In this document: positions 6,845-37,523 of the stretch, piece by piece
How the letters are laid out: the number at the start of each line of letters is the position of its first letter
Numbering within the stretch: the first letter of the stretch is position 1
Origin: Sulfurospirillum cavolei
Lineage (GTDB): Bacteria; Campylobacterota; Campylobacteria; Campylobacterales; Sulfurospirillaceae
Direction of reading: 5' to 3'
NCBI RefSeq assembly: GCF_001548055.1
Contig: NZ_AP014724.1
Coordinates: forward strand, 1,922,001 to 1,986,000
Length of the DNA stretch: 64,000 bases
Notes under the pieces: model-generated
The model's database searches: none
The model's input: the letters and a program-made list of their open reading frames with translations, nothing else
What the model was told of the DNA's origin: nothing
Program-made: the position numbers and the translations under genes

Positions 6845-6856
6845 GGAGAGGGCACG

Positions 6857-7783: not shown

Positions 7784-7785
7784 CT

Positions 7786-8439
7786 ATGGCAACTATTAAC
7801 CTAATCGATATTATCGCCGTCTTAATGATGGGAACGAGTTTTGCGGTCTTTAGTTTAAGACAATACCGACACAGCGTTTTGGCGTATGCCCTGCAAACGC
7901 TTTTATTGGTTGCGATCTTTTTGGCGTTGTACGACAAATACGATTCGCACGAACTGTTGGTTTGGTCCGTTACCGCTTTTATCATTAAAGTGGTCTGCGT
8001 ACCGCTTTACCTCTTGCGATTGATTAAAAAACTAGGCGTTGTCGTCGATGACGAACCCGTGGGCGGCTTTTTTATCTCGCCCGTCGTAGCACTTAGCTTT
8101 TCGCTGGCGGTTGCGATGATGTTTTACAAAGTGTTTATTCACTTTTCGATTTTTAAAGACGTCTTGCCGCTTTTTGCCGCTTCGTTTATCTTTATGATGG
8201 GCATTTTCGGCTTTATTTTACGAACCTCTTTTCTTAAACAGATCCTTTCGTATTGTCTGTTTGAAAACGGCATTCACTTAAGTTTGGCGTTGATGGCATA
8301 CACTTCACATGAATTGGTCGAAGTGGGTATTTTAACCGACGCCGTTTTTGCGGTTATTATTATGAGTATTTTGGCAAAGCGATTTTACGCCTCTTACGGA
8401 AGTCTCAATACATCTAAAGCGGTCAATTTAAGGGGATAA
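7786..8439 (+). CDS. hyfE: HyfE, NuoK-like membrane subunit
   Basis: This 217-residue protein has six or seven predicted membrane segments and the size and order of HyfE, a NuoK-related subunit of hydrogenase 4-type complexes. The start at 7786 (MATINLIDII) follows the hyfC stop; the longer frame from 7747 would overlap hyfC. E. coli hyf has a hyfD gene between hyfC and hyfE; no such gene exists here. It is followed after one base by hyfF. Confidence 0.82.
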   Translation: MATINLIDIIAVLMMGTSFAVFSLRQYRHSVLAYALQTLLLVAIFLALYDKYDSHELLVWSVTAFIIKVVCVPLYLLRLIKKLGVVVDDEPVGGFFISPVVALSFSLAVAMMFYKVFIHFSIFKDVLPLFAASFIFMMGIFGFILRTSFLKQILSYCLFENGIHLSLALMAYTSHELVEVGILTDAVFAVIIMSILAKRFYASYGSLNTSKAVNLRG

Positions 8440-8440
8440 C

Positions 8441-9910: not shown

Positions 9911-9919
9911 GACTTTCTA

Positions 9920-11659
9920 ATGAAATGTGATAAATTTATAGAAGCGCTAGGACAAAGAGTTAAAATTTTAGAAGTCACGAGGCAGTACGAAGATCAAGTG
10001 ACCGCTTTAGTGGAGCTAAACGACCTTCCCGAAGCGGTACGTTTCTTGTATTACGATATGGGCGGTTATCTCTCCACGATGATTCCCAACGACGAGCGAA
10101 GCATCAACAAACATTATGCGCTTTACTACGCGCTTTCGATGGAAGGCGGCAAAATGTTTGAGGGAGACGAAATCGCACAAGACGAAAAATGTTTCGTTAC
10201 CGTTAAAGTGCTTATCTCTCCCGAATCATTGGTTTTCCCGTCCGTGACGCCGTTGGTGCCGGCTTGCGTCTGGTATGAAAGAGAAGCTTACGATATGTTC
10301 GGTTTGATCGCCGAGGGCTTGCCCGATAAAAGACGCTTGGTCTTAAGCGACGACTGGCCGGACAATCTCTTCCCGCTTCGAAAAGACGCGATGGATTACC
10401 GCTATCGTCCCGATATGAAAGAGCATTATATGGAGCCCGAATACGACTTTTTACGTCCGGAAGGCTCGGGGATGATCGACGTCCCTTTGGGACCTTTGCA
10501 TATTACGGCGGACGAACCGGGGCACTTTAGACTCTATTGCGACGGCGATACCATTATCGATGCGGATTACCGACTCTTTTACCAACACCGCGGTATGGAA
10601 AAACTGGCCGAAAACCGTATGAACTACGATCAAATGGGCTATTTAGCGGAACGCGTATGCGGTATTTGCGGTTACGCCCATGCGATTGCGTGTATCGAGG
10701 CGGCGGAAAAAGCGATCAACTTGGAAATTCCCGCTCGTGCGCAAGCCATTCGTATCGTCTGTTCAGAGATCGAAAGACTTCACAGTCACCTTTTAAATAT
10801 CGGTTTGGCATGCGAAGTGACGGGTAACTACAACGCGTTTATGCACATTTTTAGAATTCGCGAATACTCGATGAAACTTGCCGAACTGGTCACCGGCGGA
10901 CGTAAAACTTACGGTAACGTCGTTATGGGCGGACTAAGACGCGATATGACGGGTCATGAGATAAAAGAGAGTTTACGCATCTTGCATATCATCGAAACGC
11001 AAGTCGAAGAGGTTTGGGATGCCGTGATGGACGATCAACGCCAAATGAAACGCTGGAAAGGTGTGGGAATTCTTGATAAACAAGTCGCACGCGACTTTTC
11101 GCCCGTCGGTCCGAACATCAGAGGTAGCGGTATTAAACGCGACACCCGTTACGACCACCCGTACGACTTTTTCAAACAAGTCAAATTCGATGTTGCGGTT
11201 GTCGAAGGCGGCGACGTATTTGCCAGAGAGATGGTGCGTTATATGGAACTCAAAAGCTCCGTTTCCATCATTCGCCAATGCTTCGAGTTGATGCCTCAAA
11301 CCGCGATCATCGTCGATCCGAAATTTCACGTTAAACCCGAGAACTACTCTTTGGCGTACGTCGAAGCACCCAGAGGCGAGAACGTTCACTGGATCATGCA
11401 AGGCAGCGCGCAAAAAGTGTATCGCTGGAGATGCCGTGCCGCAACGTACAACAACTGGCCGAGCCTTCGTTTTCAATTCCGCGGTAATACGATTGCCGAC
11501 GCCGCACTTATCGTATGTAGCTTAGATCCGTGCTATTCATGTACGGAGCGTGTAACCGTCGTGGACGTTCGAAGCAAAAAAAGCAAAATTTTGACGCACA
11601 ACGATTTGAAAGCGTTTTCGCAAACCCTTAAAAACAGTCCTATGAAGGATCTCAAATGA
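9920..11659 (+). CDS. hyfG: HyfG, [NiFe]-hydrogenase large subunit (NuoC-NuoD fusion)
   Basis: The 579-residue protein has an N-terminal NuoC-like domain (about 1-170) and a catalytic NuoD-like large subunit. Both nickel-binding motifs are intact: RVCGICGYAHA (around residue 245) and DPCYSCTERV near the C-terminus. After the second motif an extension of roughly 30 residues (TVVDVRSKKSK...) remains; in HycE this is removed by HycI after nickel insertion, probably here after the arginine of CTER. The enzyme oxidises or produces hydrogen at the cytoplasmic side. It overlaps hyfH by 4 bases. Confidence 0.93.
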   Translation: MKCDKFIEALGQRVKILEVTRQYEDQVTALVELNDLPEAVRFLYYDMGGYLSTMIPNDERSINKHYALYYALSMEGGKMFEGDEIAQDEKCFVTVKVLISPESLVFPSVTPLVPACVWYEREAYDMFGLIAEGLPDKRRLVLSDDWPDNLFPLRKDAMDYRYRPDMKEHYMEPEYDFLRPEGSGMIDVPLGPLHITADEPGHFRLYCDGDTIIDADYRLFYQHRGMEKLAENRMNYDQMGYLAERVCGICGYAHAIACIEAAEKAINLEIPARAQAIRIVCSEIERLHSHLLNIGLACEVTGNYNAFMHIFRIREYSMKLAELVTGGRKTYGNVVMGGLRRDMTGHEIKESLRILHIIETQVEEVWDAVMDDQRQMKRWKGVGILDKQVARDFSPVGPNIRGSGIKRDTRYDHPYDFFKQVKFDVAVVEGGDVFAREMVRYMELKSSVSIIRQCFELMPQTAIIVDPKFHVKPENYSLAYVEAPRGENVHWIMQGSAQKVYRWRCRAATYNNWPSLRFQFRGNTIADAALIVCSLDPCYSCTERVTVVDVRSKKSKILTHNDLKAFSQTLKNSPMKDLK

Positions 11660-12195
11660 TGAAACTTCTCGATATTAGTAAAAAATACGGCGAAATTACC
11701 CATAAGTACCCGTTTGAGCCTTATAAAGTCGCCGAAAATTTTCGCGGCAAACCCGCTTATATTTACGATCTTTGTATCGGTTGCGCGGCATGCGGCGTTG
11801 CCTGCCCGTCCAATGCGATTACGGTACAATTGAACGAGAATAAAAGCAAATTAATATGGGAATTCGACTGCGGACGCTGTATCTTTTGCGGAAGGTGCGA
11901 CGAAGTGTGCCCGACCGGTGCGATTAAGCTAAGTGAAGAGTTTGAACTGGCGGTTAAATTCGATAAATCCGCGATGATTCAAAGGGGAGAACTGGAAGTA
12001 CAATGTTGCAGCGAATGCGGCAAACCTTTCAGTGCCAAACGCTTGGTCAAATACAGTTTAGAGTGTTTAAGTAAAGCCAATTTGGGCGAAAAACGATTGG
12101 AAGAGGCAAAAAGCTACGTCAACGTTTGCCCTACATGTAAAAAAACGGCTACGGTAGCAAACTTTACCGCCGGCAAAGAGATGGTGATAGAATGA
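11656..12195 (+). CDS. hyfH: HyfH, NuoI-like two-cluster ferredoxin subunit
   Basis: The 179-residue protein has two [4Fe-4S] motifs (CIGCAACGVACP and CGRCIFCGRCDEVCP), as in HycF/HyfH and NuoI. The C-terminal part carries two further cysteine pairs (CCSECGKPF and CPTCKK) that look like a zinc ribbon or an extra metal site; HycF-type proteins have a comparable tail. It relays electrons between HyfA and HyfI. Start and stop overlap both neighbours by 4 bases, so translation is coupled. Confidence 0.88.
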   Translation: MMKLLDISKKYGEITHKYPFEPYKVAENFRGKPAYIYDLCIGCAACGVACPSNAITVQLNENKSKLIWEFDCGRCIFCGRCDEVCPTGAIKLSEEFELAVKFDKSAMIQRGELEVQCCSECGKPFSAKRLVKYSLECLSKANLGEKRLEEAKSYVNVCPTCKKTATVANFTAGKEMVIE

Positions 12196-13013
12196 AAACG
12201 TATGAAGTCCCTCAAAATATTCAAGACGCCAACGACTTGGAGCAAAAACTGGAATTGCTCAAACACATCGGACGTAGTTTTAGCGTTTATCGCATCGACT
12301 GCGGAAGCTGTAACGGCTGTGAAATCGAAATTTTTGCCGCCATTACGCCGCTTTGGGATCCCGAACGCTTCGGTTTCAAACTCGTTGCGAACCCCCGTCA
12401 TGCCGATATTTTGCTGTGCACGGGTCCCGTGACGCGCCAAATGTACTATCCGTTACTTCGCGCCTACGAAGCCACGCCCGATCCTAAAATCGTCGTAGCA
12501 CTCGGGGCGTGCGGCTCTACCGGAGGCATTTTTTACGATGCCTATAGCGTGCTAAGCGGCATCGATAAAATTATTCCTGTCGACGTTTACATTCCCGGCT
12601 GTCCTCCGCATCCTGCGAGCATTATCTACGGACTAACCACCGCGCTTGGCGTTATGGATCAAAGACTTCAAAAAACAAGCTTTGAACACGATAACGAAAT
12701 GCCGCCCGCGGTCGAAGATTCCGTTTTAGGTAATACCCTTTTCGAGAGGGATTTGTTGGTGCACTCCAAACGTCTTATGAGCTATATTTTCGGACGCAAA
12801 CTGTACGACAAATACCTTGCGGCACTCGTCAAAAGCGGCAATATCAAAGACACGAAAGCGACCAAAGCCGCGATTACCGAAGCGATGAAAAAAGAGGACG
12901 ACCCGCGCTATGCGGAGTGTTTGGGTATTTTGCATAACGAAATTTATACCCAATACGTTCCGTGTCAAGAAGAGGATAAAATCAGCCTTCATCGCGTGAA
13001 GTGGGGACGCTAA
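12192..13013 (+). CDS. hyfI: HyfI, [NiFe]-hydrogenase small subunit (NuoB-like)
   Basis: The 273-residue protein has the NuoB/HycG/HyfI cysteine set for the proximal [4Fe-4S] cluster: CGSCNGCEIEI, the cysteine of GACGSTGG, and PGCPPHPASIIYGL. There is no twin-arginine signal, which places it in the cytoplasm as expected for group 4 hydrogenases. The tail of about 90 residues after the NuoB domain is long but seen in HyfI proteins. Its stop overlaps the hyfJ start (TAATG). Confidence 0.9.
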   Translation: MKTYEVPQNIQDANDLEQKLELLKHIGRSFSVYRIDCGSCNGCEIEIFAAITPLWDPERFGFKLVANPRHADILLCTGPVTRQMYYPLLRAYEATPDPKIVVALGACGSTGGIFYDAYSVLSGIDKIIPVDVYIPGCPPHPASIIYGLTTALGVMDQRLQKTSFEHDNEMPPAVEDSVLGNTLFERDLLVHSKRLMSYIFGRKLYDKYLAALVKSGNIKDTKATKAAITEAMKKEDDPRYAECLGILHNEIYTQYVPCQEEDKISLHRVKWGR

Positions 13014-13372
13014 TGGTTGAAGTCTATAAACTGATGCAGCGGCATCTCGACGGCGCAAAATCGGGCGACGCCAAACTCGATCAGATCAAAATCTTTTCAA
13101 CATGTATCGGGCATGGCGTCGGAACGATTGATTTTAGCGAGAAAGTGTTGGAAATACCCGAATGTGAATTCGACGAGATCGTGGCACACGGCGGAGAATA
13201 CCTCAAATTCAAAATCGGTAACCTAAGTCGGTATTTTGAAATCGAAATTTTCCCCGAACATGCCGCGCAATTGGTTCCTCAAATGCTCGAATGCCCTTTA
13301 AAAGAGATTCTTGCGAACTTAAAAGAGGGCTATTTGGTGTTGCGTAAAGATTTCCAAACATCCAGAACATAG
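13013..13372 (+). CDS. hyfJ: HycH/HyfJ-type formate hydrogenlyase assembly protein
   Basis: The 119-residue protein (MVEVYKLMQRHLDGAK...) has the size, position and features of HycH/HyfJ, small soluble proteins needed to mature the group 4 large subunit. The segment TCIGHGVGTIDFSEKVLEIPE is the best conserved part. The ATG at 13013 overlaps the hyfI stop, which decides it over an in-frame upstream start inside hyfI. Assignment rests on context plus these conserved stretches. Confidence 0.75.
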   Translation: MVEVYKLMQRHLDGAKSGDAKLDQIKIFSTCIGHGVGTIDFSEKVLEIPECEFDEIVAHGGEYLKFKIGNLSRYFEIEIFPEHAAQLVPQMLECPLKEILANLKEGYLVLRKDFQTSRT

Positions 13373-13380
13373 GAAGCGAC

Positions 13381-13827
13381 GTGAAAAAAGCACTATTATG
13401 CATCGGAAACGAACTTAGAGGCGACGACGGCGTCGCCATTGCTCTTGGGAGGCTTGTCGAACAACGCCTCCCCTCGTGGACGGTCTTCTTCGGCTACGAT
13501 ACGCCCGAAAATGAATTTGTCGCTTTGCGCGAATTTCAACCCGACGTGATCGTCGTAGTCGATGCAATGAGCGGATTTAAAGAGGATAAAATCGAATTTA
13601 TCGACCTCAGCGACGAGCGTACCTACGTCTACTCGACGCATAACCTACCCACGCCGATTTTGATGAGCTACCTTCGAGAGATTTGCATTCAAACCATTTT
13701 TTTAGGGATATGCGTTTTACTCGAAAACGTCTTGCATTTTAGCGAAGGGTTAAGCCAAAGTGCCCAGACGTCCGTTACCAAAGCGTTCGACAAACTTCAA
13801 GAACTCGACGCGATGCTTGAGGCTTAA
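13381..13827 (+). CDS. hycI: HycI-type hydrogenase maturation protease
   Basis: The 148-residue product begins KKALLCIGNELRGDDGVA, the hallmark of the HyaD/HycI peptidase family, where the early acidic residue (E in GNELRGDDG) and a later aspartate (VVDAM) bind nickel. It removes the C-terminal extension of HyfG. Translation starts at GTG (13381) with AGGA upstream. It is the last gene of the hyf operon and meets the convergent ABC transporter operon at a hairpin. Confidence 0.88.
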   Translation: MKKALLCIGNELRGDDGVAIALGRLVEQRLPSWTVFFGYDTPENEFVALREFQPDVIVVVDAMSGFKEDKIEFIDLSDERTYVYSTHNLPTPILMSYLREICIQTIFLGICVLLENVLHFSEGLSQSAQTSVTKAFDKLQELDAMLEA

Positions 13828-13847
13828 AGCCTAGAGGGCTTTAGCCT
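13820..13847. terminator. Bidirectional hairpin between hycI and the ABC ATPase gene
   Basis: AGGCTTAAAGCC (13820-13831) pairs with GGCTTTAGCCT (13837-13847) with a single-base bulge and a 5-base loop. The stop codons of both convergent genes lie within it. It probably ends both the hyf operon and the long minus-strand operon. Confidence 0.6.
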
Positions 13848-14592
13848 GTTTCAAGCGTGCTAAAATCGTTTCGTAAAGATGCTTGATTTTTAAGGAAGCG
13901 TTACGTTGTTCCTTGGGCGTTTGCGGCGTCACAACCTCTAAAATACGACCGGGTCGTCCGTGCATCAGCACCACTCTATCACCCAATAACAAAGCTTCGC
14001 GAAGCGAGTGCGTCACCAAAACCGCGCTCATGCGGTTTTCGCTAAAAAAGCGCTGCATCGCTTCGTCCATCATCTCTCGTCCCACCTCGTCAAGCGCGGA
14101 AAAAGGCTCATCCATCAAAATGAGTTTGGACTCCATCGCAAGGGCACGTGCAAGTGCGGCTCGTTGTTTCATACCGCCTGAAATCTCCCTCGGATAGGCT
14201 TTCGCAAACGAAGCAATGCCCGTTTTTTCCATATATTCTTGGGCTTTTTCTCGCTTTTGATTTTTGGAAAGCGCGGTACGATGCAACGGTAACATCACGT
14301 TTTCTTCGATGCTTAACCATACAAAAAGCCCCGAATCTTGCGGAATGAAACTGCGCGAATGATGCGGTGCGACAACGGCTTCGTCGCGGTGCAATACCGT
14401 ACCGCTATTAGGCGTCTCAAACCCCGTAAACAGACGAAGCAAGGTCGATTTGCCGCAACCGCTCTCGCCTACGATAGAGATGCATTCTCCTACATGTAAC
14501 GTCAGATCGATCTTTTGAACGGCAACGACGCAACGGTTTTCATGGGCTAAAAAATAGGCTTTGCTTAAACCTTCGGCTAAGAGTTCAACCAT
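13831..14592 (-). CDS. ABC transporter ATP-binding protein, NitT/TauT/SsuB type
   Basis: The 253-residue ATPase has all motifs: Walker A GESGCGKST (about residues 40-48), the Q-loop FIPQDSG, signature ISGGMKQR, Walker B LILMDEP and the switch histidine VTHSLREA. It resembles ATPases of nitrate/taurine/alkanesulfonate-type importers. The gene overlaps the permease gene by 8 bases and is the last of a nine-gene minus-strand operon. It powers uptake through the adjacent permease; the substrate is unknown. Confidence 0.85.
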   Translation of the reverse strand: MVELLAEGLSKAYFLAHENRCVVAVQKIDLTLHVGECISIVGESGCGKSTLLRLFTGFETPNSGTVLHRDEAVVAPHHSRSFIPQDSGLFVWLSIEENVMLPLHRTALSKNQKREKAQEYMEKTGIASFAKAYPREISGGMKQRAALARALAMESKLILMDEPFSALDEVGREMMDEAMQRFFSENRMSAVLVTHSLREALLLGDRVVLMHGRPGRILEVVTPQTPKEQRNASLKIKHLYETILARLKQAKAL

Positions 14593-15361
14593 TGCCTACC
14601 CGCTGTAAAATTTTCTTTTCCAAAACCCTAAATCCCCATTTTTCCGCAACGATTCCCACCGCACAGATCAAGCCGATGGAGATAAACACGACTTCAAAAT
14701 CAAGCGACCAACGTGATTGAATAATGGCATAGCCCAGCCCCACGCTACTACCGACGACCATCTCCGCCGCGATCAATACGCGCCAACCGATAGCCAGTCC
14801 CAAACGAAGTCCCGTTAAGATCGGCAAAGCGCATAAGGGCAGGATGAGCGTAAAAAAAAGTCGAAACGAAGAGAGGTTCATCATCTTTGCCATGGAAAAC
14901 GTTTGTGCGGGAATCGAATGAATCGCTAATGCCGTGTGCATAAAAATCAGAGGAAACGCGCTCATCGCGATCATAAAAAGCGTCGCTCTCTCGCCGATAC
15001 CGAACAAGAGCATTGCAAAAGGAATCCATGCAAGACCGGGCATCATCTGCAAAACGGTTCCGACATGTAAAGCGATCGCATAGGCTTTTTCAAAAAAACC
15101 GCAGACCGTCCCAAGCGTCACGCCGAAAAAAACGGCGATACTATAAGCGATCAGCCACCGCTTCAAACTCATCGTAAAATGGGAAAAAAGTGAAGTGTCG
15201 TAAACGCTTTCGCCGCTTAAAAGCGAAACGAGACGCATCACAACCGCATCGGGCATCGGAAAGGGAATATGCCGCACCGCTTCGACGCTCAGGGCGAAAA
15301 GCCACCAAAAAAGCGTAAAAGCACCCATCCAGGCGAGAATCCAAAGAGACGACTTTAGCAC
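14585..15361 (-). CDS. ABC transporter permease, NitT/TauT type
   Basis: This is a BPD-type inner-membrane permease with about six helices; the EAA-like loop appears around FSMAKMMNLSSFRLFFTLILP. A long frame from 15520 exists, but the GTG at 15361 has an AAGGA site 6 bases upstream that overlaps the stop of the preceding gene, and it gives the usual length (258 aa); an ATG at 15397 is the alternative. It works with the ATPase and the periplasmic binding protein encoded on either side. Confidence 0.8.
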   Translation of the reverse strand: MLKSSLWILAWMGAFTLFWWLFALSVEAVRHIPFPMPDAVVMRLVSLLSGESVYDTSLFSHFTMSLKRWLIAYSIAVFFGVTLGTVCGFFEKAYAIALHVGTVLQMMPGLAWIPFAMLLFGIGERATLFMIAMSAFPLIFMHTALAIHSIPAQTFSMAKMMNLSSFRLFFTLILPLCALPILTGLRLGLAIGWRVLIAAEMVVGSSVGLGYAIIQSRWSLDFEVVFISIGLICAVGIVAEKWGFRVLEKKILQRVGNG

Positions 15362-15371
15362 ACGCGTTCCT

Positions 15372-16271
15372 TTAATGCGCCGTACATTTTTCCACATCGG
15401 GGAGATGGGAAAGTTTGTGAGCGTCGTATAAAAATTCCGCCATTTTAACCAAACTTGCCTTGGTTGTCGTGTCGATACCGATGCGATAAAAATGGTACGC
15501 CATCGCTTCTTTCGTCGCACCGACCGAAAGCTTGGAAAATTTTGAGACGATCTGTGCGCTTTCTTCGGGTGACTCGTTAATGAATTTCGCCGCTTTTTCG
15601 AGTGCCCTCAACACGCCGTCCATGTGAGACGCATGCTCTTTAAAACTCGACGCTTTGACCATCAGCAAAAGCGGATAGGTATTGCCCACGCCGTCCAAAC
15701 TCTCGATGCGTTTTCCAATGCCTTTTTCAACCAAAACCGAAGGAGTCGGCTCGCTTGCGATGACCGCATCGACCTCTTTGGACGCCAACGCCGATGCCAT
15801 CAACGAAGGTTCCAAGTCCATCAACTCTTTGTCCAACGTTATACCCTCCGCTTTGGCTTTAAGCATCACGCCGCCGTGCGTCGAAGTGCCTTTTTTCACG
15901 GCGATCTTTTTGCCCTCAAGGTCTCGAAGCGACTGTGCCGAAGCGTCCACGGGAACGACCACGCCGTGACGTTTTTCGCCGCCGCCCAAAGCGGTAAGGA
16001 TTTGAATGTTAGGACAATATTTTGCCACCGCGATCAACGCGGCGGTATCGCCCATCGTCGCAATATCCGCATCGCCGAAGATCAATGCTTCGCCGGTCGC
16101 AGGCCCGCTCGTAAAACGTTTTGCCGCGATTTCAATGCCCTCTTCTTCAAAAAACTTCTTCTCGATCGCTACGATCACGACCGCATCGACGACACGATCT
16201 TGCAAGGCAATAACCAAAGGCTTCGTCCATCCCAAACTTACTATCGTCATAACTAACAATACAAAACGCAT
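15372..16271 (-). CDS. Periplasmic substrate-binding protein, NMT1/SsuA-like
   Basis: The protein (299 aa from the ATG at 16271, which has GGAG upstream) starts with a signal peptide (MRFVLLVMTIVSLGW). The fold is that of NitT/TauT/SsuA binding proteins: KPLVIALQDRVVDAVVIVAIEKKFFEEEGIEI, then a GDADIATMGDTAAL segment and KGTSTHGG where ligand normally binds. It should catch a small anion or heterocycle in the periplasm. It lies between the radical SAM fusion and the permease gene, so its ligand may be a substrate, precursor or cofactor for that enzyme; this is inference from context. Confidence 0.82.
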   Translation of the reverse strand: MRFVLLVMTIVSLGWTKPLVIALQDRVVDAVVIVAIEKKFFEEEGIEIAAKRFTSGPATGEALIFGDADIATMGDTAALIAVAKYCPNIQILTALGGGEKRHGVVVPVDASAQSLRDLEGKKIAVKKGTSTHGGVMLKAKAEGITLDKELMDLEPSLMASALASKEVDAVIASEPTPSVLVEKGIGKRIESLDGVGNTYPLLLMVKASSFKEHASHMDGVLRALEKAAKFINESPEESAQIVSKFSKLSVGATKEAMAYHFYRIGIDTTTKASLVKMAEFLYDAHKLSHLPDVEKCTAH

Positions 16272-16279
16272 GGTTACTC

Positions 16280-19200
16280 CTAAAATATCGGGCACTTTTT
16301 GCCGTAGCAATACGCATTAAATTTTTTCTGGTCGCACTTCGTCTGTTCTTCTGCCCAAAGCCTTACATGTAAGAAATCTTCCGACAACGAAGAGGCGATC
16401 GTGAGTGCCGTCCAGACTTCTCGGTTGCAGCAGCGCGCCGCTTCGTATTCGGCGATTGTGCCCAAAACCGCATGCGTCACTTTTTGCGCTTGAGAGCGTG
16501 CCGCTTTTGCCACGGGAGAGGCTTCCAACAAAATCGCAAATCCGATGCCCACTCCCGCCGCCGCACCGCACATTCCTAAAAATCCGCATGCGCCTCCGAT
16601 TACGCTTGAGCCTCGAGATAGAGCCGTTTTGAGCGCATTTTCGGGGAGTTTACCGCCGCTATTGCGATAAGCGGTTACGATGATGGCTGGTACCATCGCA
16701 TGGTGTTCGGGACCGTGTTTGGGAATGCTCGGATGCGCTCTGATCTGCTTGAAAAGCTTTAACATGTCGCGTTCTTGAGAGCTTCGGCACAAATGCTCAA
16801 TCACCACAAGCGCGTCTTTAGCGTGGCACGCGTCGCACACGTAGTGTCCGTTTTCACATGTCACGCTACTCAAATGCACGCTGTTGCAATAATGGCACGC
16901 GACCTCTTGCACCGCCGTTTCATAGCGCAAAGGTGCTTTACAGACCATACAATCGTGCGCGGCTTTAGGTTTTATGAGACCGAAGCTTTCCGCGGCAAGG
17001 CTTCGTAACGACGGTTTCGACTCCGGAGGAAGCGCGCAGTTGCAAGCAGCACCTTCTTGATTGACGATGTTACCCTCCGCGTCGAAACAAAATAAAACGC
17101 TTTGCAATGCCTTTGCCGTACGGGCTCGAACTTTGGTTTTAACGCCTTTGTAAAGAACGATGCCCTCTTCGAGAATCAAACGCTCTCCCTCGCCCTTGTA
17201 CATCACGTCGACGTACGTTTCATGCGAGGGTTTGTATGCTTCAAAACTCAACGAATAAAAAGGATGCCCTTGCACTTCGCGGTAAAAGAAGCGTTTCAAT
17301 AAGCGAATGTTCGTAAAACCGCTTTCCAAAAGTAAGCCCGTTAAATGCGTTTGGCTCAAAGCACCCGCGATGCACTCACCGCCGAGCTTGGCATCGTTTT
17401 TAATGCCCGCACTCGCTTCTTCGTCGCACACGACGTCCGAAACGACGAGCCTTCCGCCCTCTTTCAAGACGCGAAAGATTTGTGCGAAGAGTTTGCGTTT
17501 GTGCGTGGAAAGATTGAGCACGCAATTGGAAGTTACGACGTCGACGCTGGCATCGTCTAAAGGTAAGGCTTCCAAATAGCCTTGATAAAACGATAGATTG
17601 TCGTATCCGAGGTTGTGCGCGACCGCTTTTGCGCCTTCTTGGGCGATACGCAACATCGAGGGAAGCATATCGACGCCGATAACACGTCCGTTTTCTCCCA
17701 CGAGTTTGGAAGCGATGAAGCACTCCACACCTCGACCCGAACCTAGATCGAGCATCGTCTCGCCCGCTTGTAAATCGGCTTCGAGAATCGGACTGCCGCA
17801 ACCGTAGCCTCGAAAGCGCAACGCCTCGGGAATATGCGAGAGTAACGCCTCATCGTAGCATACGGGATTTAAAATATCCTCTTTATCTTCCAATGCCGCA
17901 TCATGGTAAAACGCTTTAACGATGCGAAGCGATTCGCTTTCTCCGGTAGCGATCATACAATTCGCATGCGTGTGCGCTATGCCTTCATGCGCGCCGCAAG
18001 TGTACAAAATATCGCCCATTTCCAAACACAAACCGGCTTTTTTCGGTTCGTACGAAGCCGCCTCGGCAAGCATCATTTCCATCGCCAATGCACGCATTAA
18101 AGGCTCGTAAGGATCATCGCCCATCAAAGTTCGGGCATGATGGAAACTATGGTCCAAATCGCCGCCGCCCAGTAAAAACCGTAAGGGCGTTTTCAAATCG
18201 ACGACGGAACTTCGGGCGATACGTTCGGCCGTCTCGCTTTTCAAAGCTTCGGCAATCGTTTTTCCTTGCATAAGAAGTTCTTTTTCTCCGACGGTTGCCG
18301 CACTTGGATAAAACCGTCCGTCATAGCCCAAAGCCAAGGAACTGCGTCCGGAACTCGAACCGTCGTGAACCGTGCCTTTGGGCGCGAAAATTTGGGTTTT
18401 TAAGGCTTCAAAATTGTCAATCGCGACACCGTGTTCGCATGCGTACATGTAAGCGTTGAGCAAAGCGTCCAACAGTACGTCCGTCGACACGATAGGAGTG
18501 TCGCTCCCGCGTCCGTGCACAAAATACCATAACAAATGCAGATGCGTCGCTCCCGCATTTTTCGTCGTATCGATCAGACCTAAAAGCGTATGAAGGTTGT
18601 GGGGATGAACGCAAAAAGAGAACGAAAACGCATACGCGTTGTCTCGAAGCCATGCCGCGTTACGCAAGACCTTGGCAAACGTACCTTTACCTCGAAGCGC
18701 GTCGTGTTCGGCTTCCAGTCCGTCTACGCTGATTTGAAACGAAAGGCGTTTGGAATCAAACGAAGCGGCTGAAAAGACTTTTTGCACCAAAACACCGTTT
18801 GTCAGGACAACGACGTTCGTCGCTTCGTAGTTCAAAATCGTCTCGATCAGCTCCAAAAAGCGCGGATGCACCAAAGGTTCGCCGCCGGTGACGATAAACA
18901 AACGACACCCGAGCGCATACGCTTCTTGCAGATGTTTTTGAATCGTTTCAAAGGCTAACATGTCACTCTCTTCGGGCGAAGAACTAAACAGACAATGCTT
19001 ACATGTCAGATTGCATCGGTTGGTCAGGTGAATCCAAAATTCCGCTAGAGCGGGGGCTTTCGTTTCGTACTTAGGACGATAAACGCGCGGATTGGGTAGG
19101 GCGATACGTTTTTGAAAATGCACGTCGCCTTGTTGCAGTAAAAAGTCGGCTTCGGCATTGGGAATAAACCAATCGGCACCGTGTTCGTAGACGTAGATTG

Positions 19201-19288
19201 CACGGTTTTTATACGTAATTTTTTGCCACAAAGACCTAAAATCATTGATCTCTTCACGGATCGTTTCAGTGTAACTCACGGGTTTCAT
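16280..19288 (-). CDS. Radical SAM - ArsM-like methyltransferase - DUF5714 fusion (1002 aa)
   Basis: Three enzymes appear fused. Residues about 80-340 form a radical SAM domain: cluster cysteines C92, C96, C99 (RCNLTCKHC) and GGEP at 135-138. Residues about 480-680 form a class I methyltransferase: DLGSGRG at 514-520, YGCGSP at 495-500, SNCVLNL at 587-593 and GGECIAGA around 639. C497, C589 and C639 match the cysteine layout of arsenite methyltransferases. Residues about 775-1002 are DUF5714, with zinc-ribbon-like pairs (C780/C783, C798/C801, C811, C818/C821), then an HG-EHH segment, a GG-CG--G-CGAA segment, ARCCNR and a terminal CPIF. Start overlaps the upstream VTT gene by 23 bases and has GAGG. 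It is the core of the operon. The reaction is unknown; a methylated, radically modified thiophilic product is inferred. Confidence 0.85.
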   Translation of the reverse strand: MKPVSYTETIREEINDFRSLWQKITYKNRAIYVYEHGADWFIPNAEADFLLQQGDVHFQKRIALPNPRVYRPKYETKAPALAEFWIHLTNRCNLTCKHCLFSSSPEESDMLAFETIQKHLQEAYALGCRLFIVTGGEPLVHPRFLELIETILNYEATNVVVLTNGVLVQKVFSAASFDSKRLSFQISVDGLEAEHDALRGKGTFAKVLRNAAWLRDNAYAFSFSFCVHPHNLHTLLGLIDTTKNAGATHLHLLWYFVHGRGSDTPIVSTDVLLDALLNAYMYACEHGVAIDNFEALKTQIFAPKGTVHDGSSSGRSSLALGYDGRFYPSAATVGEKELLMQGKTIAEALKSETAERIARSSVVDLKTPLRFLLGGGDLDHSFHHARTLMGDDPYEPLMRALAMEMMLAEAASYEPKKAGLCLEMGDILYTCGAHEGIAHTHANCMIATGESESLRIVKAFYHDAALEDKEDILNPVCYDEALLSHIPEALRFRGYGCGSPILEADLQAGETMLDLGSGRGVECFIASKLVGENGRVIGVDMLPSMLRIAQEGAKAVAHNLGYDNLSFYQGYLEALPLDDASVDVVTSNCVLNLSTHKRKLFAQIFRVLKEGGRLVVSDVVCDEEASAGIKNDAKLGGECIAGALSQTHLTGLLLESGFTNIRLLKRFFYREVQGHPFYSLSFEAYKPSHETYVDVMYKGEGERLILEEGIVLYKGVKTKVRARTAKALQSVLFCFDAEGNIVNQEGAACNCALPPESKPSLRSLAAESFGLIKPKAAHDCMVCKAPLRYETAVQEVACHYCNSVHLSSVTCENGHYVCDACHAKDALVVIEHLCRSSQERDMLKLFKQIRAHPSIPKHGPEHHAMVPAIIVTAYRNSGGKLPENALKTALSRGSSVIGGACGFLGMCGAAAGVGIGFAILLEASPVAKAARSQAQKVTHAVLGTIAEYEAARCCNREVWTALTIASSLSEDFLHVRLWAEEQTKCDQKKFNAYCYGKKCPIF

Positions 19289-19922
19289 ACCTCTTCACTC
19301 GTTTTTGAACATAGCCTCGAAGGAGCATCGAGACAATGACTAAAAGAACCATCAACGCAATACTTATCCAAAAATCCGTCGTACCGAACGCTAAAGTTTT
19401 TGCGCCGATATTGGCATAGACGAATACGCCGGGCATCATACCCAAAAACGTCGCAAAGAAAAAATCGCGGTAGCGAATCGTCGAAAAACCCGCCGAATAG
19501 CTGATGATGTTAAACGGAACCAACGGCACCAAGCGCAACAGTAAAATCATCAAAAAACCGTGGGACTGTACACTGCGATGAAAATGAATCAGCTTCTCGT
19601 TCGAGAGCTTTGCATGCATCTTTTTACCGTACCAACGGGCAAGGAAAAACGACAACGACCCGCCGCAAAGCGCACCGACGATAATGTAAACGCTGCCTAT
19701 CGTAAAGCCGAAAATGAGTCCGCCCGCCAACGCTAAAATCCCGTCGGGAAAAAATACGAGCGGCGCTAACGTAAAGAGTACAATAAAAATCAGCGGCGCA
19801 TACATACCGAAGCTCAAAACGAACGCCTTAATCGCTTCGACTTGTTCAAACGAGAGAATACCGCTTCGGTAGAAAAAAAACATTAAAAGCCCGAACGCCA
19901 AAAAAAGAAGTGCTTTTTTCAT
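19266..19922 (-). CDS. TVP38/TMEM64 (VTT/DedA-like) membrane protein, copy 2
   Basis: The 218-residue integral membrane protein has the VTT (SNARE-associated) domain: FSFG-type helix, FFPDGILALAGGLIFG, ARWYGKKMHAKLS and the RLVPLVPFNIISYSAGFS motif with its arginine and prolines. Proteins of this family resemble transporters or lipid scramblases; related genes often sit in operons for mercury, selenium or arsenic handling. A second member lies one gene upstream. The protein is the immediate upstream neighbour of, and overlaps, the radical SAM fusion gene. Confidence 0.85.
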   Translation of the reverse strand: MKKALLFLAFGLLMFFFYRSGILSFEQVEAIKAFVLSFGMYAPLIFIVLFTLAPLVFFPDGILALAGGLIFGFTIGSVYIIVGALCGGSLSFFLARWYGKKMHAKLSNEKLIHFHRSVQSHGFLMILLLRLVPLVPFNIISYSAGFSTIRYRDFFFATFLGMMPGVFVYANIGAKTLAFGTTDFWISIALMVLLVIVSMLLRGYVQKRVKRYETRELH

Positions 19923-19945
19923 GGAAAATCCTTTTCAAAACGCGC

Positions 19946-21037
19946 TTACAAGCGTTCGATCATACGACGTGAACGGTAACGGTTGTACCACTTTTTAAGA
20001 ACACCTTGCTTGGCTTGACGCTTGAGGCGGTGCGGCATAAAGATAAAGTCTAACAGATGAAGCCCGTTTTTGCCGCCTTTGCTCATCGACTCGGCGCAAC
20101 TTTGGCAGTAGCTCACGATGCTTTCGCATTGCGTTTGAGCGGCTCTGCTTTGCATCTGCGCTTGGGCAAGATGCGGCGCGCTCAGTTCCATCATACCTCC
20201 GCTTCCGCAACACTGCGTTTTATCGCGGTTAAATTTGAACTCTTCAAACGAAAGACCGATTGTGTGCATTAAAGCCCTCACGTCCTCTTGCAATGCGCTC
20301 TCAAAGCGCGTGGGACAAGGATCGTGCAAAGCAACCGCATCGTACGAACGGTAGCGATCGATCGCGGTTTTGGGAACGCCGATCTCGTTTAAAAGCGAAT
20401 AGAGCGATACGATTGTGATATGCGGCGAATGGGTTTTGATGCTCATATAGCAATTTTCGCATGCCGTGACGACCGTCGTCGCTCCCATTGCGGCAAGGTC
20501 GCTCTCCAAGTGCGATCGGTAGATGTGAAACTGTGCCGTATCGCCCATCATCCGCGTGGGCGTACCGCAACACTGTTGAATGATGCCGATACCGGGCAAT
20601 TGTGAACGCAAATAATCGAAAACCGCATAAATCAGCGAAGGCGAGTACGAAGCAAGGGCGCATCCGGGCATAAACGCCATATGCCTATACGCTCCCGCCG
20701 TAAACGATTTGAGCGTTGAAAAACGTTTTGAAAAACTCTGTTTTTGGTGAAACATGACCGCACCGTAACCGTATTTTTTCAAAACCTTTTGATCGGCGGC
20801 GTAGTGTTCTTTCGTACCTTGAAAGAGTGCTCCAAAATCAATATCTTTCGGGCACACGTGCGCGCACAAACCGCACGTCGCACACGAAAATGCCGTTGCT
20901 GAGCTCGGTTTTTCACGCGTAAAGCGAAGCAGTAAATTTTTAGGCGAATCGGTGTGCGCATACAGCATCGGACACCCTTTCATGCACGCTTTACAGTCCA
21001 AGCACGTTTCAAGATAGTGCGCGAGCTTAGCGTCCAC
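19946..21037 (-). CDS. Fe-S/CCG-domain oxidoreductase (GlpC/HdrD-like)
   Basis: The 363-residue cytoplasmic protein has two [4Fe-4S] ferredoxin motifs at the N-terminus (CLDCKACMKGCP and CATCGLCAHVCP) and two CCG domains (QQCCGTP around residue 158 and TQCCGSGG near 275). This matches the C-subunit of glycerol-3-phosphate dehydrogenase and heterodisulfide reductase D, which pass electrons to or from quinones or thiols. A basic C-terminal tail (KKWYNRYRSRRMIERL) might bind the membrane. It lies between two VTT genes and overlaps the upstream one by 11 bases. It could supply electrons to the radical SAM domain; that is inference. Confidence 0.82.
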   Translation of the reverse strand: MDAKLAHYLETCLDCKACMKGCPMLYAHTDSPKNLLLRFTREKPSSATAFSCATCGLCAHVCPKDIDFGALFQGTKEHYAADQKVLKKYGYGAVMFHQKQSFSKRFSTLKSFTAGAYRHMAFMPGCALASYSPSLIYAVFDYLRSQLPGIGIIQQCCGTPTRMMGDTAQFHIYRSHLESDLAAMGATTVVTACENCYMSIKTHSPHITIVSLYSLLNEIGVPKTAIDRYRSYDAVALHDPCPTRFESALQEDVRALMHTIGLSFEEFKFNRDKTQCCGSGGMMELSAPHLAQAQMQSRAAQTQCESIVSYCQSCAESMSKGGKNGLHLLDFIFMPHRLKRQAKQGVLKKWYNRYRSRRMIERL

Positions 21038-21698
21038 GATACACCCGTTTGATGAGATAGACCAAAATCGTCACGGAAAAAAGAATCAACAAGCCGTACA
21101 CAAACGTTCGCGCCCCGCCCGTTAACATCTCTCCGGCATATGAATAAACCAGCGTCGCCGGTAATTGCCCGATACCCGTAGCGATCACGAACGAGCCAAG
21201 GCGCATCGACGTCAGCCCCGCGGCGTAGCTGACCACGTCAAAGGAAATAAACGGAAGCAATCGCGCGATCAAAATCGCGTACACGCCGTGTTTTTCAAAA
21301 AAAGCGTCCACACTTTCCAACGCCATCTTCGAAGTGAGTTTTTCGACGACTTCGCGACCTAACAATCGCGCGATGTAAAAACACAAAATCGCGCCCGCCA
21401 TCGCACTCGTCCATGAAAGTGCCGCACCCCAAAGCCAACCGAACAACGCCGCATTGGAAAAAGTAATGAGAAACGCCGGCAAAGGTGCCATGACCGATTG
21501 AAACACCATCAGCGCAAACGAAATCAACGGTGCCCAAGCCCCGAACGATAAAATATACGCTTTAATCACTTCCAAATCGAGCCCTTGAAAAAGCGCGATC
21601 CATCCCAAAAACAGCGCACGAGAGCTGGGAAACACTAGCAAGGCGATGAGAACGATACCGCTTAAAAGCAGTACCGCCCGTTTGTGCATTCGCGTCAT
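21027..21698 (-). CDS. TVP38/TMEM64 (VTT/DedA-like) membrane protein, copy 1
   Basis: The 223-residue membrane protein is a VTT-family member like the one encoded two genes downstream, with the RLLPFISFDVVSYAAGLT motif matching the family consensus. The two copies are diverged, so they are old paralogues or have separate roles rather than a recent duplication. The start codon abuts the stop of the first rhodanese gene and the 3' end overlaps the Fe-S protein gene, which shows tight co-expression. Confidence 0.85.
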   Translation of the reverse strand: MTRMHKRAVLLLSGIVLIALLVFPSSRALFLGWIALFQGLDLEVIKAYILSFGAWAPLISFALMVFQSVMAPLPAFLITFSNAALFGWLWGAALSWTSAMAGAILCFYIARLLGREVVEKLTSKMALESVDAFFEKHGVYAILIARLLPFISFDVVSYAAGLTSMRLGSFVIATGIGQLPATLVYSYAGEMLTGGARTFVYGLLILFSVTILVYLIKRVYRGR

Positions 21699-22135
21699 TA
21701 TTTGTCTAACACGTCGCTAATTTTTTCTCTCGGCCAACCCTCTTGACCGTTTTTAAGCGTAAAAAGTTGCTCTTTTTTGAGTCCTTTTTCCAAATAATAA
21801 TCATACGTTCTATCCGCACCGCCGGCACCTCTTGGGCAAACGATGACCACTTTTTGATCGGGTTTAATATCGGGAAGCAACTCTGCCAAGCGCGCTTTTT
21901 CCGCATCGGTTTTAACCGGATACGCATAGGTTTCGTGTGCTCCTTTTAAATGCTCTTTTGCAAATCCCGGTTTTTCTTGAATATCCACGATGACGACTTT
22001 GGAAGGGTCTTTTCGAATCAATTCCGCCGTCTCTTCGGCGGTAATGTAGTTGTAACTGCTAAAAATTCCCGCCATCAACGCACCTTTAAAAAGTGCCGTT
22101 GCCGCCAATGCGCCTAATACTTTCGTCATTTTCAT
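21698..22135 (-). CDS. Secreted rhodanese-like protein 1
   Basis: The protein (145 aa from the ATG at 22135, preceded by AAAGGAT) starts with a signal peptide (MKMTKVLGALAATALFKGAL). The rhodanese domain contains IVDIQEKPGFAKEHLKGA and the active-site loop CPRGAGGADRTYDYY. The loop has the catalytic cysteine but not the standard CX4R pattern, so persulfide chemistry may differ. It is a close tandem paralogue of the next gene. It probably acts in the periplasm on sulfur or a sulfur-like element. Confidence 0.82.
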   Translation of the reverse strand: MKMTKVLGALAATALFKGALMAGIFSSYNYITAEETAELIRKDPSKVVIVDIQEKPGFAKEHLKGAHETYAYPVKTDAEKARLAELLPDIKPDQKVVIVCPRGAGGADRTYDYYLEKGLKKEQLFTLKNGQEGWPREKISDVLDK

Positions 22136-22182
22136 TCTTGTATCCTTTAGAGTATGCGCGTTCTTACGAAACCGCACGAAAT

Positions 22183-22623
22183 TTATTTATCCAAAACGTC
22201 TTTGATTTTATCTCTCGGCCATTCGTATTGACCGCCTTTAAGCGTAAAGAGTTGCTCTTTTTTGAGCCCTTTTTCCAAGTAAAAATCATACGCTCTATCG
22301 GCTCCTCCGCCGCCTCTTGGGCAGACGATGACCACTTTTTGATCGGGTTTAATGTTCGGCAAAAGCTCCGCTAAACGTGCTTTTTCCGCATCGGTTTTAA
22401 CCGGATAGGCATACGTTGAAATAGCACCTTTGAGATGTTCCTCTTCAAAATCGGGTTTTTCTTGAATGTCGACTAACACGAGTTTGGAAGCGTCCTCACG
22501 CATCAACTTTGCCGTTTCGTCGGCGGTAATGTAGTTGTATTTGGCATTTTCTTTGACTTTACCGCCGCAACCGAGCGTCAACAAAGCCGTCAATACCACT
22601 GCGCTTATCGCGAGTATTTTCAT
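22183..22623 (-). CDS. Rhodanese-like lipoprotein 2
   Basis: The 146-residue protein has a signal peptide ending in LLTLGC, a probable lipobox, followed by a rhodanese domain almost identical to that of the neighbouring gene: PVKTDAEKARLAELLPNIKP and the loop CPRGGGGADRAYDFY. Copy 1 is soluble or membrane-anchored by its signal, this copy is probably lipid-anchored. The pair arose by tandem duplication. It is the first gene of the nine-gene operon, with GGAG upstream of its ATG. Confidence 0.82.
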   Translation of the reverse strand: MKILAISAVVLTALLTLGCGGKVKENAKYNYITADETAKLMREDASKLVLVDIQEKPDFEEEHLKGAISTYAYPVKTDAEKARLAELLPNIKPDQKVVIVCPRGGGGADRAYDFYLEKGLKKEQLFTLKGGQYEWPRDKIKDVLDK

Positions 22624-22846
22624 GGATTGCTCCTTTAGGAAATGACATGTAACGAGCCTAAAGAGGGGAGTATGACAAAGAAGAGCACAAAGGAGGTTAT
22701 GTCTTTTTTGATGTACGCTTAAGCCTTAAGCCGTTACATGATGTGGTACAATGATAAACTTTTGTAACTTACAATGAGGTTAAATCGGTCAACGTTTCTT
22801 GACTGATCTAAAAAGTGCCGTCGTTTTAAAAGGAGCGTTCTCTCGT
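22624..22846. promoter_or_regulatory. Divergent promoter region with 15-bp palindrome
   Basis: This 223-bp stretch separates the nine-gene minus operon from the plus-strand kinase and glycosyltransferase genes. GCTTAAG (22717-22723) and CTTAAGC (22725-22731) form a perfect palindrome around one base. CATGTAACG (22646-22654) and CGTTACATG (22732-22740) form a wider inverted repeat. A TACAAT box lies near 22745. An AAAGGAG site precedes the ATG at 22847. A shared regulator of both transcription units is plausible but unidentified. Confidence 0.5.
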
Positions 22847-23926
22847 ATGACAGTTGAAGATATTGCGCGTTACATAGCCGCGCAAAGCGTTTTAGGAAAA
22901 GTATTAAAGCACGATCGTTACGATGTTGACGAAATCGGTGGAGGTAATTTAAATTTTATCTTTCGCGTACAAAGCGCATCCGGAAATTCGCTGATTATCA
23001 AACATGCGCCGCCTTACCTTCGTATGCTCGGAGAAGCGTTTGCTTTGACGCAAGAACGTATCTGCGCGGAGATGCATACGATGCATTATTTTCAAACCAT
23101 CGCGCCTTCGTACGTGCCGCACGTTTACCTGTGCGACGAGGAGCATTTTTGCTTTGCGATGGAAGATTTGCGGGAGTTTCGTTTGATGCAAAACCGCTCC
23201 GACGTGCCGCTTCGCATTTACGAAAAACTGGGCGATTTTTTAGCTTTGCTTTTTTTAAATATGCCGCCGCCTCGTTTGGAGGGTTATTACGAAAATGCGG
23301 CGTTGAAGCGTATCAGCGACGAATATATTTTTTGCTTTCCCCATATCGCCGATCACCCCGCCCTCGTTCGCGTACCCTACTTCACGCCGCGCCCGAAAAG
23401 TCGGCATTTCGAGGCGACGATCGCTTGGCTTAGGACGCGTTTTTTAGAAGCCAAAGAGCACCTTTTACACGGTGATTTGCATACGGGATCGGTCATGACA
23501 AACGGCTACGATCTCAAAATCATCGATGCGGAGTTTGCCTTTTTCGGTCCTTTGGGATTTGACGCGGGTGTTTTGATCGCGCATATCCTTTTTGATGAAA
23601 TTCATGCCTATTGTAGCGATCAAGCAGTGCACTACACAAAACGCATACAAGCCTTGTTTCGCGGTTTTGAGGCACGTGCTCACACCATCTCGTTAGCGTT
23701 TTTACGCGAAAGCGTCGGTTTTTGCGGTGCGGAGTTGTACCGTCGCTTGCTCGTTCCGGCGAAAGCCAAGCCGCTCGAAGCTTTACCGAACGTATCGCAA
23801 AAGGCCCAAGCATATGCCTTAAGCGAAACCTTGGCGATCGATTTGGTTGAAGCATGCTTACATGTAGAATCGCTTGAAGATTTTCTCGCACGCGTGGAGC
23901 GTCGCTTATGTCCCAAAACGCGCTAA
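22847..23926 (+). CDS. Methylthioribose kinase (MtnK) family sugar kinase
   Basis: The product (359 aa) belongs to the MtnK branch of the aminoglycoside-phosphotransferase-like fold: EIGGGNLNFIFRV (about 29-41), catalytic HGDLHTGS (208-215) and DAEFAFFGPLGFDAG (227-241), the last being typical of MtnK. MtnK phosphorylates the anomeric carbon of 5-methylthioribose. No other methionine-salvage gene is in the window. It overlaps the glycosyltransferase gene by 19 bases and faces the radical SAM operon. A 5-deoxyribose or 5-modified ribose produced from S-adenosylmethionine would be a fitting substrate; this is inference. The ATG at 22847 is preferred because of the AAGGAG site. Confidence 0.82.
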   Translation: MTVEDIARYIAAQSVLGKVLKHDRYDVDEIGGGNLNFIFRVQSASGNSLIIKHAPPYLRMLGEAFALTQERICAEMHTMHYFQTIAPSYVPHVYLCDEEHFCFAMEDLREFRLMQNRSDVPLRIYEKLGDFLALLFLNMPPPRLEGYYENAALKRISDEYIFCFPHIADHPALVRVPYFTPRPKSRHFEATIAWLRTRFLEAKEHLLHGDLHTGSVMTNGYDLKIIDAEFAFFGPLGFDAGVLIAHILFDEIHAYCSDQAVHYTKRIQALFRGFEARAHTISLAFLRESVGFCGAELYRRLLVPAKAKPLEALPNVSQKAQAYALSETLAIDLVEACLHVESLEDFLARVERRLCPKTR

Positions 23927-25227
23927 TTTATTTTCTCAAAGCTCCCAAAGAAGGCGACGTCAAAACGCGCCTTGCAAAAAGCATCGGCAACCAAGCGGCG
24001 ACTCGATGCTACACGCTTTTGTGCGAACGGCTTTTGGCACTTGAAGTCGACGAAACCGTCGATCGCTTCATCGCTTACGGCGACGCTCAACACGCCATAC
24101 CGCCGTTTGAAGGCTCTTTCGGTCTCTTTTTTCAAGAAGGCGAAGGCTTGGGAGCACGCATGCAAAACGCGTTTCGGCACTGTTTTGCACAAGGCTACGA
24201 GCGTGTCGTCTTGGTCGGAGCGGATATTCCCGACGTCGACGCATCGCTTTTAAACGAAGCCTTTGATGCACTTGCATCGCACGATGCGATTTGCTCGCCG
24301 ACGTATGACGGCGGCTATTACCTCATCGGCTTTCACGCAACGACTTTCACGCCCAAGGCATTTAAGCATATCGTCTATTCGCAAAGCGACGTTTTTGCCA
24401 AAACGCTCGATGCGCTTTTTCCTCTCGTGGTCGCTCAAGGCAAAACGCTTCACGACCTTGATACCTTGGACGACCTCAGAGCCCTTGCTTTTAAAGCCTC
24501 TTCCTCGTTTCATACCTACGCGCAAGCCCTCTTAAAAACGCTTCCGCGCATCAGCGTCGTCTTGCCCGTGTATCGCGAAGATGAGCGATTACGAAAGATC
24601 ATTGATCAAACGCGTCAGCGAGCGCAAACGGCTTCCATCGAAATCATCGTCGTCGACACCGATGAGAGAACCACCGTCGATGCCGTGGCATTGGAAAACG
24701 TTCGCATCGGATTTAGCCGACAAGGGCGTGCCGCGCAGATGAACGAAGGGCTTTTGATGGCGCAAGGAGAAACCGTGCTGTTTTTACATGCGGACACGCT
24801 GCTTCCCGACGCTTGGGATCGCTTGGTCGAAGAAACCTTACATGTCACGTGTGCGGGAGCGTTTTCATTGGCGATCGACGATGCGCATCCGTGGTTTCGT
24901 TTTATCGAAAACGCCGCCAATCTTCGCGCAAAACTGACACGCGTTCCCTACGGCGACCAAGCCCTCTTTTTCTCGACGCCGTTTCTACGCGAACAAGGCG
25001 GTTTTGCCGACATTGCGTTGATGGAAGACGTGGAAATCATGCGACGCCTCAAAAAGCAACATGTACCGATCGTCATACGAAGCGAAACGGTGTTGACCTC
25101 TTCGCGACGATGGCATCAAGAAGGCTTTGTGTACACGACGCTTCGCAACCGCATTTTAAGCTTTTTATTTTGGCTAGGCGTCTCTCCGAAGCGTTTCATC
25201 AAACGCTATCGAGCACATCGGGACTAA
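23908..25227 (+). CDS. DUF2064 (TIGR04282) - family 2 glycosyltransferase (TIGR04283) fusion
   Basis: The 439-residue protein joins two domains that are usually separate. Residues about 1-205 are DUF2064, a nucleotidyltransferase-like GT-A fold: FLKAPKEGDVKTRLAK, GADIPDVD, SPTYDGGYYLIGFH. Residues about 210-439 are a family 2 glycosyltransferase: ISVVLPVYREDERL, GRAAQMNEGL, LFLHADT, YGDQALFF, MEDVEIMRRL, SSRRWHQEG. In genome surveys these two families are found together beside a radical SAM marker first thought to be selenium-linked and later tied to arsenosugar synthesis. The likely pathway role is to activate and transfer a sugar to an acceptor made by the divergent operon. Confidence 0.85.
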   Translation: MSQNALIYFLKAPKEGDVKTRLAKSIGNQAATRCYTLLCERLLALEVDETVDRFIAYGDAQHAIPPFEGSFGLFFQEGEGLGARMQNAFRHCFAQGYERVVLVGADIPDVDASLLNEAFDALASHDAICSPTYDGGYYLIGFHATTFTPKAFKHIVYSQSDVFAKTLDALFPLVVAQGKTLHDLDTLDDLRALAFKASSSFHTYAQALLKTLPRISVVLPVYREDERLRKIIDQTRQRAQTASIEIIVVDTDERTTVDAVALENVRIGFSRQGRAAQMNEGLLMAQGETVLFLHADTLLPDAWDRLVEETLHVTCAGAFSLAIDDAHPWFRFIENAANLRAKLTRVPYGDQALFFSTPFLREQGGFADIALMEDVEIMRRLKKQHVPIVIRSETVLTSSRRWHQEGFVYTTLRNRILSFLFWLGVSPKRFIKRYRAHRD

Positions 25228-37368: not shown

Positions 37369-37523
37369 ACGGTTTCGGCTATCATCCTTTTCCTTAATTA
37401 CAGATACTTTAATCCCACATAAGATAAAATAACCTATTCCTTAAATCTTGTTCATTCATCTAGCGCTAACGCTTGATAAAATAAAGATTTGCAAGAGTCA
37501 TCAATCAAAAAGGTTTGAAGAAC

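Follow-up and report, generated by a model that had tools for sequence, protein, structure and literature searches.

We analysed a window of 64,000 nucleotides (positions 1,922,001 to 1,986,000 of contig NZ_AP014724.1) from the 2.7-Mb, Sulfurospirillum-type genome of Sulfurospirillum cavolei, in which eleven genes at window positions 13831-25227 form a locus centred on a 1002-aa radical S-adenosylmethionine (SAM) protein. The locus probably directs the synthesis of an arsenosugar-type compound, possibly an arsenosugar lipid, with this one polypeptide replacing both ArsM and ArsS. The proposal follows from the family membership of the glycosyltransferase in the locus, from the alternation of the locus with ArsS, and from an accessory operon that is shared with an ArsS locus of a sister genus. 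Arsenosugars are major natural organoarsenicals, and ArsM and ArsS provide the first steps of their synthesis. To our knowledge, the later sugar steps have not been assigned; the open-access literature yielded neither such an assignment nor a paper on a locus of this kind.

All eleven genes were confirmed at their coordinates, and the spacing agreed with the initial annotation of the window, which described a tight nine-gene minus-strand operon divergent from a two-gene plus-strand operon. The minus-strand genes encode, in order, rhodanese 2, rhodanese 1, the membrane protein VTT2, a CCG Fe-S protein, the membrane protein VTT1, the 1002-aa fusion (16280..19288), and an SsuA/NMT1-type ATP-binding cassette (ABC) importer of three genes. 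The intergenic distances range from +23 bp at most down to small overlaps, except where open reading frame starts are over-long. The plus-strand pair consists of a homologue of S-methyl-5-thioribose (MTR) kinase (MTRK, 22799..23926) and a two-domain DUF2064-GT2 glycosyltransferase (GT, 23908..25227), which overlap by 19 bp.

GT exceeded the curated cut-offs of both TIGR04282 (DUF2064, nucleotidyltransferase-like; 157.1 vs 134 bits) and TIGR04283 (205.1 vs 182 bits), families whose NCBI name, arsenosugar biosynthesis glycosyltransferase, reflects genome association and not assayed activity. Co-occurrence was scored above the curated cut-offs in a single draw of 249 genomes of Campylobacterales. 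TIGR04283 was present in 17 genomes, DUF5714 in 13, and ArsS in 4, and the 17 TIGR04283 genomes were exactly the 13 with the radical SAM-ArsM-DUF5714 fusion and the 4 with a true ArsS; no genome carried both. The outcome named in the initial annotation as refuting its proposal, no co-occurrence beyond chance, was not obtained. Within the genus, GT was found in 17 of the 18 genomes with the fusion and in none of the 6 without it, and the lone fusion genome lacking GT is an 86%-complete metagenome-assembled genome whose contigs end at MTRK. The best match to ArsS (TIGR04167) in the window genome reached 58.0 bits against a cut-off of 300, was partial, and lay inside the fusion.

The accessory genes are also found with ArsS itself. 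In a sister-genus genome (G024), the rhodanese 2-VTT2-CCG-VTT1 set adjoins a MerA-like oxidoreductase and an ArsS-ArsM fusion that scores as a true ArsS (360 bits against TIGR04167, with a cut-off of 300), and an MTRK-GT pair is present on a separate contig. Rhodanese 2 adjoins ArsS-ArsM in L046, and TIGR04283 lies beside ArsS-ArsM in G033. In G104 and G200, ArsS is accompanied by a VTT pair, a homologue of the CCG protein, TIGR04282, and TIGR04283; homologues of VTT2 (51-53% identical) occur in the ArsS loci L088 and L089. VTT proteins and oxidoreductases are also found near ArsS in Pseudanabaena, Acinetobacter, and Cupriavidus. Together, the family cut-offs, the complementary co-occurrence, and the G024 locus lend good support to the earlier proposal of a distinct arsenosugar-type variant without a known ArsS.

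The fusion protein contains a radical SAM domain at residues ~80-265 (PF04055, 70 bits), an ArsM-type methyltransferase domain at ~470-670 (Methyltransf_31, 107 bits), and a Cys-rich C-terminal DUF5714 at 830-1001 (PF18978, 195 bits). The CX3CX2C motif of the radical SAM domain, CNLTCKHC, is conserved in 21-22 of the 22 aligned rows. Cysteines 497, 589, and 639 align with the As-binding cysteines of the solved CmArsM and are invariant in the 22 rows; the same holds for 17 cysteines within and ahead of DUF5714. Against the PRK11873 arsenite methyltransferase, the methyltransferase part scored 212 bits, under the curated cut-off of 263, with the domain embedded in the fusion. The C-terminal domain of ArsS, DUF3641 (PF12345), was not found in the fusion by a Pfam search, and a Ser occupies the position of the ArsS Cys that follows the DG.xY motif. 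Judged from its sequence, the radical SAM part is not an ArsS, because it scores better against other radical SAM models (as much as 75 bits vs 58). For the same reason, its profile match to ArsS (E 3e-12) was rejected as a special link.

The methyltransferase domain forms its own clade, apart from that of the ArsS-ArsM fusions. A single origin of the two fusions was rejected for this domain by the approximately unbiased test (p 0.0006), in which there were only two ArsS-fused rows and the branches were long. Since the methyltransferase domain does not group with the ArsS-ArsM fusions, the protein seems to have arisen by a separate fusion of a radical SAM domain with ArsM.

Of the 24 genomes of the genus, 18 carry the fusion, which also occurs in sister genera and is 60-88% identical among Sulfurospirillum genomes. 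A scan of genome contigs with short patterns, in a single pass, matched the fusion in Campylobacterota only. The recurring core is rhodanese 2-(VTT2)-CCG-VTT1-fusion with a divergent MTRK-GT pair, and the sister genera keep this core with local rearrangement. The gene arrangement exceeds chance, because the core recurs across Sulfurospirillum and the sister genera. The ABC trio and rhodanese 1 are optional and missing in many relatives. The importer is thus dispensable to the system. The initial annotation is partly supported as a whole: its arsenosugar-variant core is well supported, and the supply or export that it assigned to rhodaneses and VTT proteins would be putative. The place of the ABC trio downstream of the fusion is taken in L033 and G017 by an aquaglyceroporin and a CobW-type GTPase, and we count this arrangement as support for an arsenosugar-type locus. 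In G017 (L053:9439-12428), the fusion is divided into adjacent genes for a radical SAM-ArsM protein (726 aa) and a DUF5714 protein (269 aa); unless this split is a frameshift, DUF5714 is able to work as a chain of its own. An operon-free congener (L056, G013:C1:797095-797244) retains a C-terminal DUF5714 remnant adjoining lrgAB, which suggests loss of the locus.

MTRK carries the MTR-kinase catalytic motifs HGDLHTGS and IDAEF..GP.GFD, has the solved relatives 2pyw and 2olc, and scored 212 bits against the MtnK model TIGR01767 (cut-off 275). All 13 fusion genomes tested carried it, as did G024, and three congeners without the fusion lacked it; a weak match in G033 adjoins MtnA. The salvage isomerase MtnA was absent in 19 of the 20 genomes searched, including the window genome, and the nucleosidase gene MtnN was present in all 20. 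A role of MTRK in methionine or 5-deoxyribose salvage is unlikely, because MTRK falls below the MtnK cut-off and MtnA is so widely absent. In the ArsS loci of Burkholderia, Acinetobacter, and Cupriavidus, a methylthioadenosine (MTA) phosphorylase takes the place of MTRK, and in those of G104 and G200 TIGR04282 is fused to a ThiK/GntI-like kinase domain. The latter pairing (L088:6848-8296 and L089:5941-7452) looks undescribed. Published alternative routes to 5-deoxyribose 1-phosphate use either a phosphorylase or a nucleosidase with MTR kinase (PMC6079011). The simplest common logic suggested by gene content would be phosphorylation at C1, then nucleotide activation, and finally transfer. MTRK, whose role the initial annotation left open, is accordingly a proposed C1 kinase of a 5-substituted ribose.

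In regards to DUF5714, a free-standing gene lies beside an arsM-acr3-arsR operon on a Paraclostridium plasmid and another lies next to arsR in Lachnospira; because these copies adjoin ars genes, they support an arsenic-related role for the domain. In Paraclostridium strain EML, an ars operon with this gene order (arsM-acr3-MPPE-arsR1) has been described (PMC11653729). We found no paper on DUF5714 in the open-access literature, and the present locus gives the domain a first functional context. On the Paraclostridium bifermentans plasmid (L100:9773-10531), arsM has an in-frame TGA at the expected arsenic-binding cysteine of the ArsM GEC motif, with the DUF5714 gene convergent and adjoining; this arsM may be a selenocysteine form. 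A C-GCAxxG-C-C protein follows ArsS in L088, and a relationship of DUF5714 to such proteins was not supported by profile comparison, for which few sequences were available.

A pathway can be proposed from these gene contents and motifs. The central ArsM-type domain would methylate As(III) to dimethylarsenite, the radical SAM domain would attach a 5'-deoxyadenosyl group to arsenic, and the Cys-rich DUF5714 would keep or pass on trivalent arsenic. A housekeeping MTA/S-adenosylhomocysteine nucleosidase would then take off adenine, and MTRK would phosphorylate C1 of the resulting 5-dimethylarsinoyl ribose. The TIGR04282 domain would form the nucleoside diphosphate sugar, and the TIGR04283 domain would move the sugar to an acceptor. 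The CCG Fe-S protein, the periplasmic rhodaneses, and the VTT proteins may serve redox and membrane steps, which are guesses. As to the wider idea that an independently evolved one-chain enzyme, combining arsenic methylation with adenosyl joining, is coupled to a sugar-1-phosphate route that explains the late arsenosugar steps generally, we regard the case for and against as evenly balanced.

Several observations weigh against an arsenosugar-type function. The models that outscore ArsS on the radical SAM part are those of maturases of ribosomally synthesized and post-translationally modified peptides (RiPPs) and of heme-pathway radical SAM enzymes, so that the part is no closer to ArsS (58 bits) than to these (up to 75 bits). 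Its best solved match is SkfB, and the fold search gave only generic SPASM/RiPP-type matches. No match at E ≤ 0.001 was obtained in a fold search with the DUF5714 model, which is itself of moderate confidence (predicted local distance difference test score, pLDDT, 71.5). The co-occurrence derives mostly from a single genus and a small number of independent events, and its Fisher p values, computed on related genomes, were uncorrected for kinship. The nucleosidase gene lies outside the locus, and the distribution of Acr3, which was tried and rejected as a co-occurring partner, does not follow the locus.

Four other explanations were weighed. The product may be a glycosylated organoarsenical to which the radical SAM domain transfers another group, such as an additional methyl or the 3-amino-3-carboxypropyl of arsinothricin synthesis, with the kinase salvaging or decorating a different compound. 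This fits a radical SAM part that is not an ArsS, radical SAM enzymes with different C-As chemistry are known (PMC12159101), and the methyltransferase matches the arsinothricin ArsM model, at 177.7 bits and below the cut-off of 500. However, the kinase, TIGR04282, and TIGR04283 are common to ArsS loci, where the known product type is a 5'-substituted adenosine, and we consider a different transferred group unlikely. It is less probable still that the same logic serves not arsenic but selenium, antimony, or a thio compound. In favour of this, NCBIfam lists several selenoproteins as relatives of the methyltransferase and DUF5714 parts, and rhodaneses handle sulfur or selenium; on the other side, each of the three cysteines by which ArsM binds arsenic is invariant, DUF5714 adjoins ars genes, the locus alternates with ArsS, and arsB was present in all nine genomes tested. 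The initial annotation had spoken of a metalloid or sulfur-like element; this wording can be narrowed, with fair confidence, to arsenic.

Ordinary explanations, whether chance grouping or a salvage operon, are disfavoured. In a 5'-deoxyadenosine/methylthioadenosine salvage operon, the kinase would clear the radical SAM by-product and the remaining genes would be incidental. MTR kinases do also accept 5-deoxyribose (PMC6079011), but MtnA is missing in all but one of the genomes searched, the locus has no aldolase, and every complete locus seen pairs the kinase with the TIGR04282/TIGR04283 protein, which makes such an operon very improbable. A RiPP maturation system, with the radical SAM part acting on a precursor peptide, is suggested by SkfB and other RiPP maturases as the nearest solved structures and by predicted N-terminal strands and helices that may resemble a peptide-recognition domain, but it is highly unlikely given a tight operon without space for a precursor gene, the modest confidence of that model (pLDDT 66), and accompanying genes of arsenosugar type.

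The remaining minus-strand genes were assigned as follows. VTT1 (19266..19922; PF09335, 100 bits) and VTT2 (21027..21698; PF09335, 97 bits) are TVP38/TMEM64-like membrane proteins. The CCG Fe-S protein (19946..21037) has 4Fe-4S dicluster and CCG domains and is HdrD/GlpC-like (PF02754, PF13534; NF045663, 242 bits). Rhodanese 1 (21698..22177; PF00581, 36 bits) has a signal peptide-like start and the loop CPRGAGGADR, and the conserved rhodanese 2 (22183..22623; PF00581, 44 bits) has a lipobox-like start (LTLGC) and the loop CPRGGGGADR; the loop pattern CPRG.GGADR is conserved, and both starts resemble export signals. The importer comprises an SsuA/NMT1-like substrate-binding protein (15372..16310; PF09084, 64 bits; TIGR01728, 145.7 vs cut-off 163.5), a permease (14585..15520; PF00528, 65 bits), and an ATPase (13831..14592; PF00005, 111 bits). 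The large overlap between the first two is probably an artefact of over-long start choices, with the substrate-binding protein starting at an internal ATG (~16271) and the permease, too, at a more internal position. No RNA families or tRNAs were found in the window, and the promoter and terminator scans gave scores not above those of shuffled sequence. A hydrogenase-4/formate hydrogenlyase-type operon (4203-13827), whose last gene encodes a HycI-like peptidase, lies on the opposite strand just upstream of the importer genes. An rve-type integrase/transposase open reading frame (35484-36356) is followed, ~1 kb further downstream, by a glutaminyl-tRNA synthetase (GlnRS)-YqeY/GatB fusion (37515-39764; NF011291, 1226 bits). 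Since GlnRS is unusual among Campylobacterota, this fusion gene may have been acquired.

If the arsenosugar-type reading is true biochemically, the locus offers a second, apparently separate route to the arsenic-adenosyl bond, in anaerobic Campylobacterota, and the substitution of ArsM and ArsS would be a notable case of independent origin. The comparison of MTRK, the TIGR04282-fused kinase, and MTA phosphorylase suggests one testable logic for the activation and transfer of an arsenic-bearing ribose. With the known ArsM/ArsS loci (TIGR04167, NF038099, TIGR04282, TIGR04283), some of which likewise fuse radical SAM and ArsM, the locus shares TIGR04282 and TIGR04283 above cut-off, an ArsM-type methyltransferase, a radical SAM domain, VTT proteins, an Fe-S/redox protein, and a rhodanese. 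It differs from them in having neither ArsS nor DUF3641, in its three-domain fusion with DUF5714, and in a separate MTR-kinase homologue instead of an MTA phosphorylase or a TIGR04282-fused kinase. Like CmArsM and bacterial ArsM, the fusion has a methyltransferase fold with three As-binding cysteines, but its methyltransferase domain is embedded between radical SAM and DUF5714 and forms its own clade. MTRK shares the HGDLHTGS and DxEF..GP.GFD motifs of MtnK (TIGR01767), but is below the cut-off, occurs in a genome without MtnA, and is paired with a glycosyltransferase. The Cys-rich domain is common to DUF5714 (PF18978, 195 bits) and the MbdU double selenoprotein (NF045648); it is fused here to radical SAM-ArsM, whereas it is free-standing in Clostridia plasmids.

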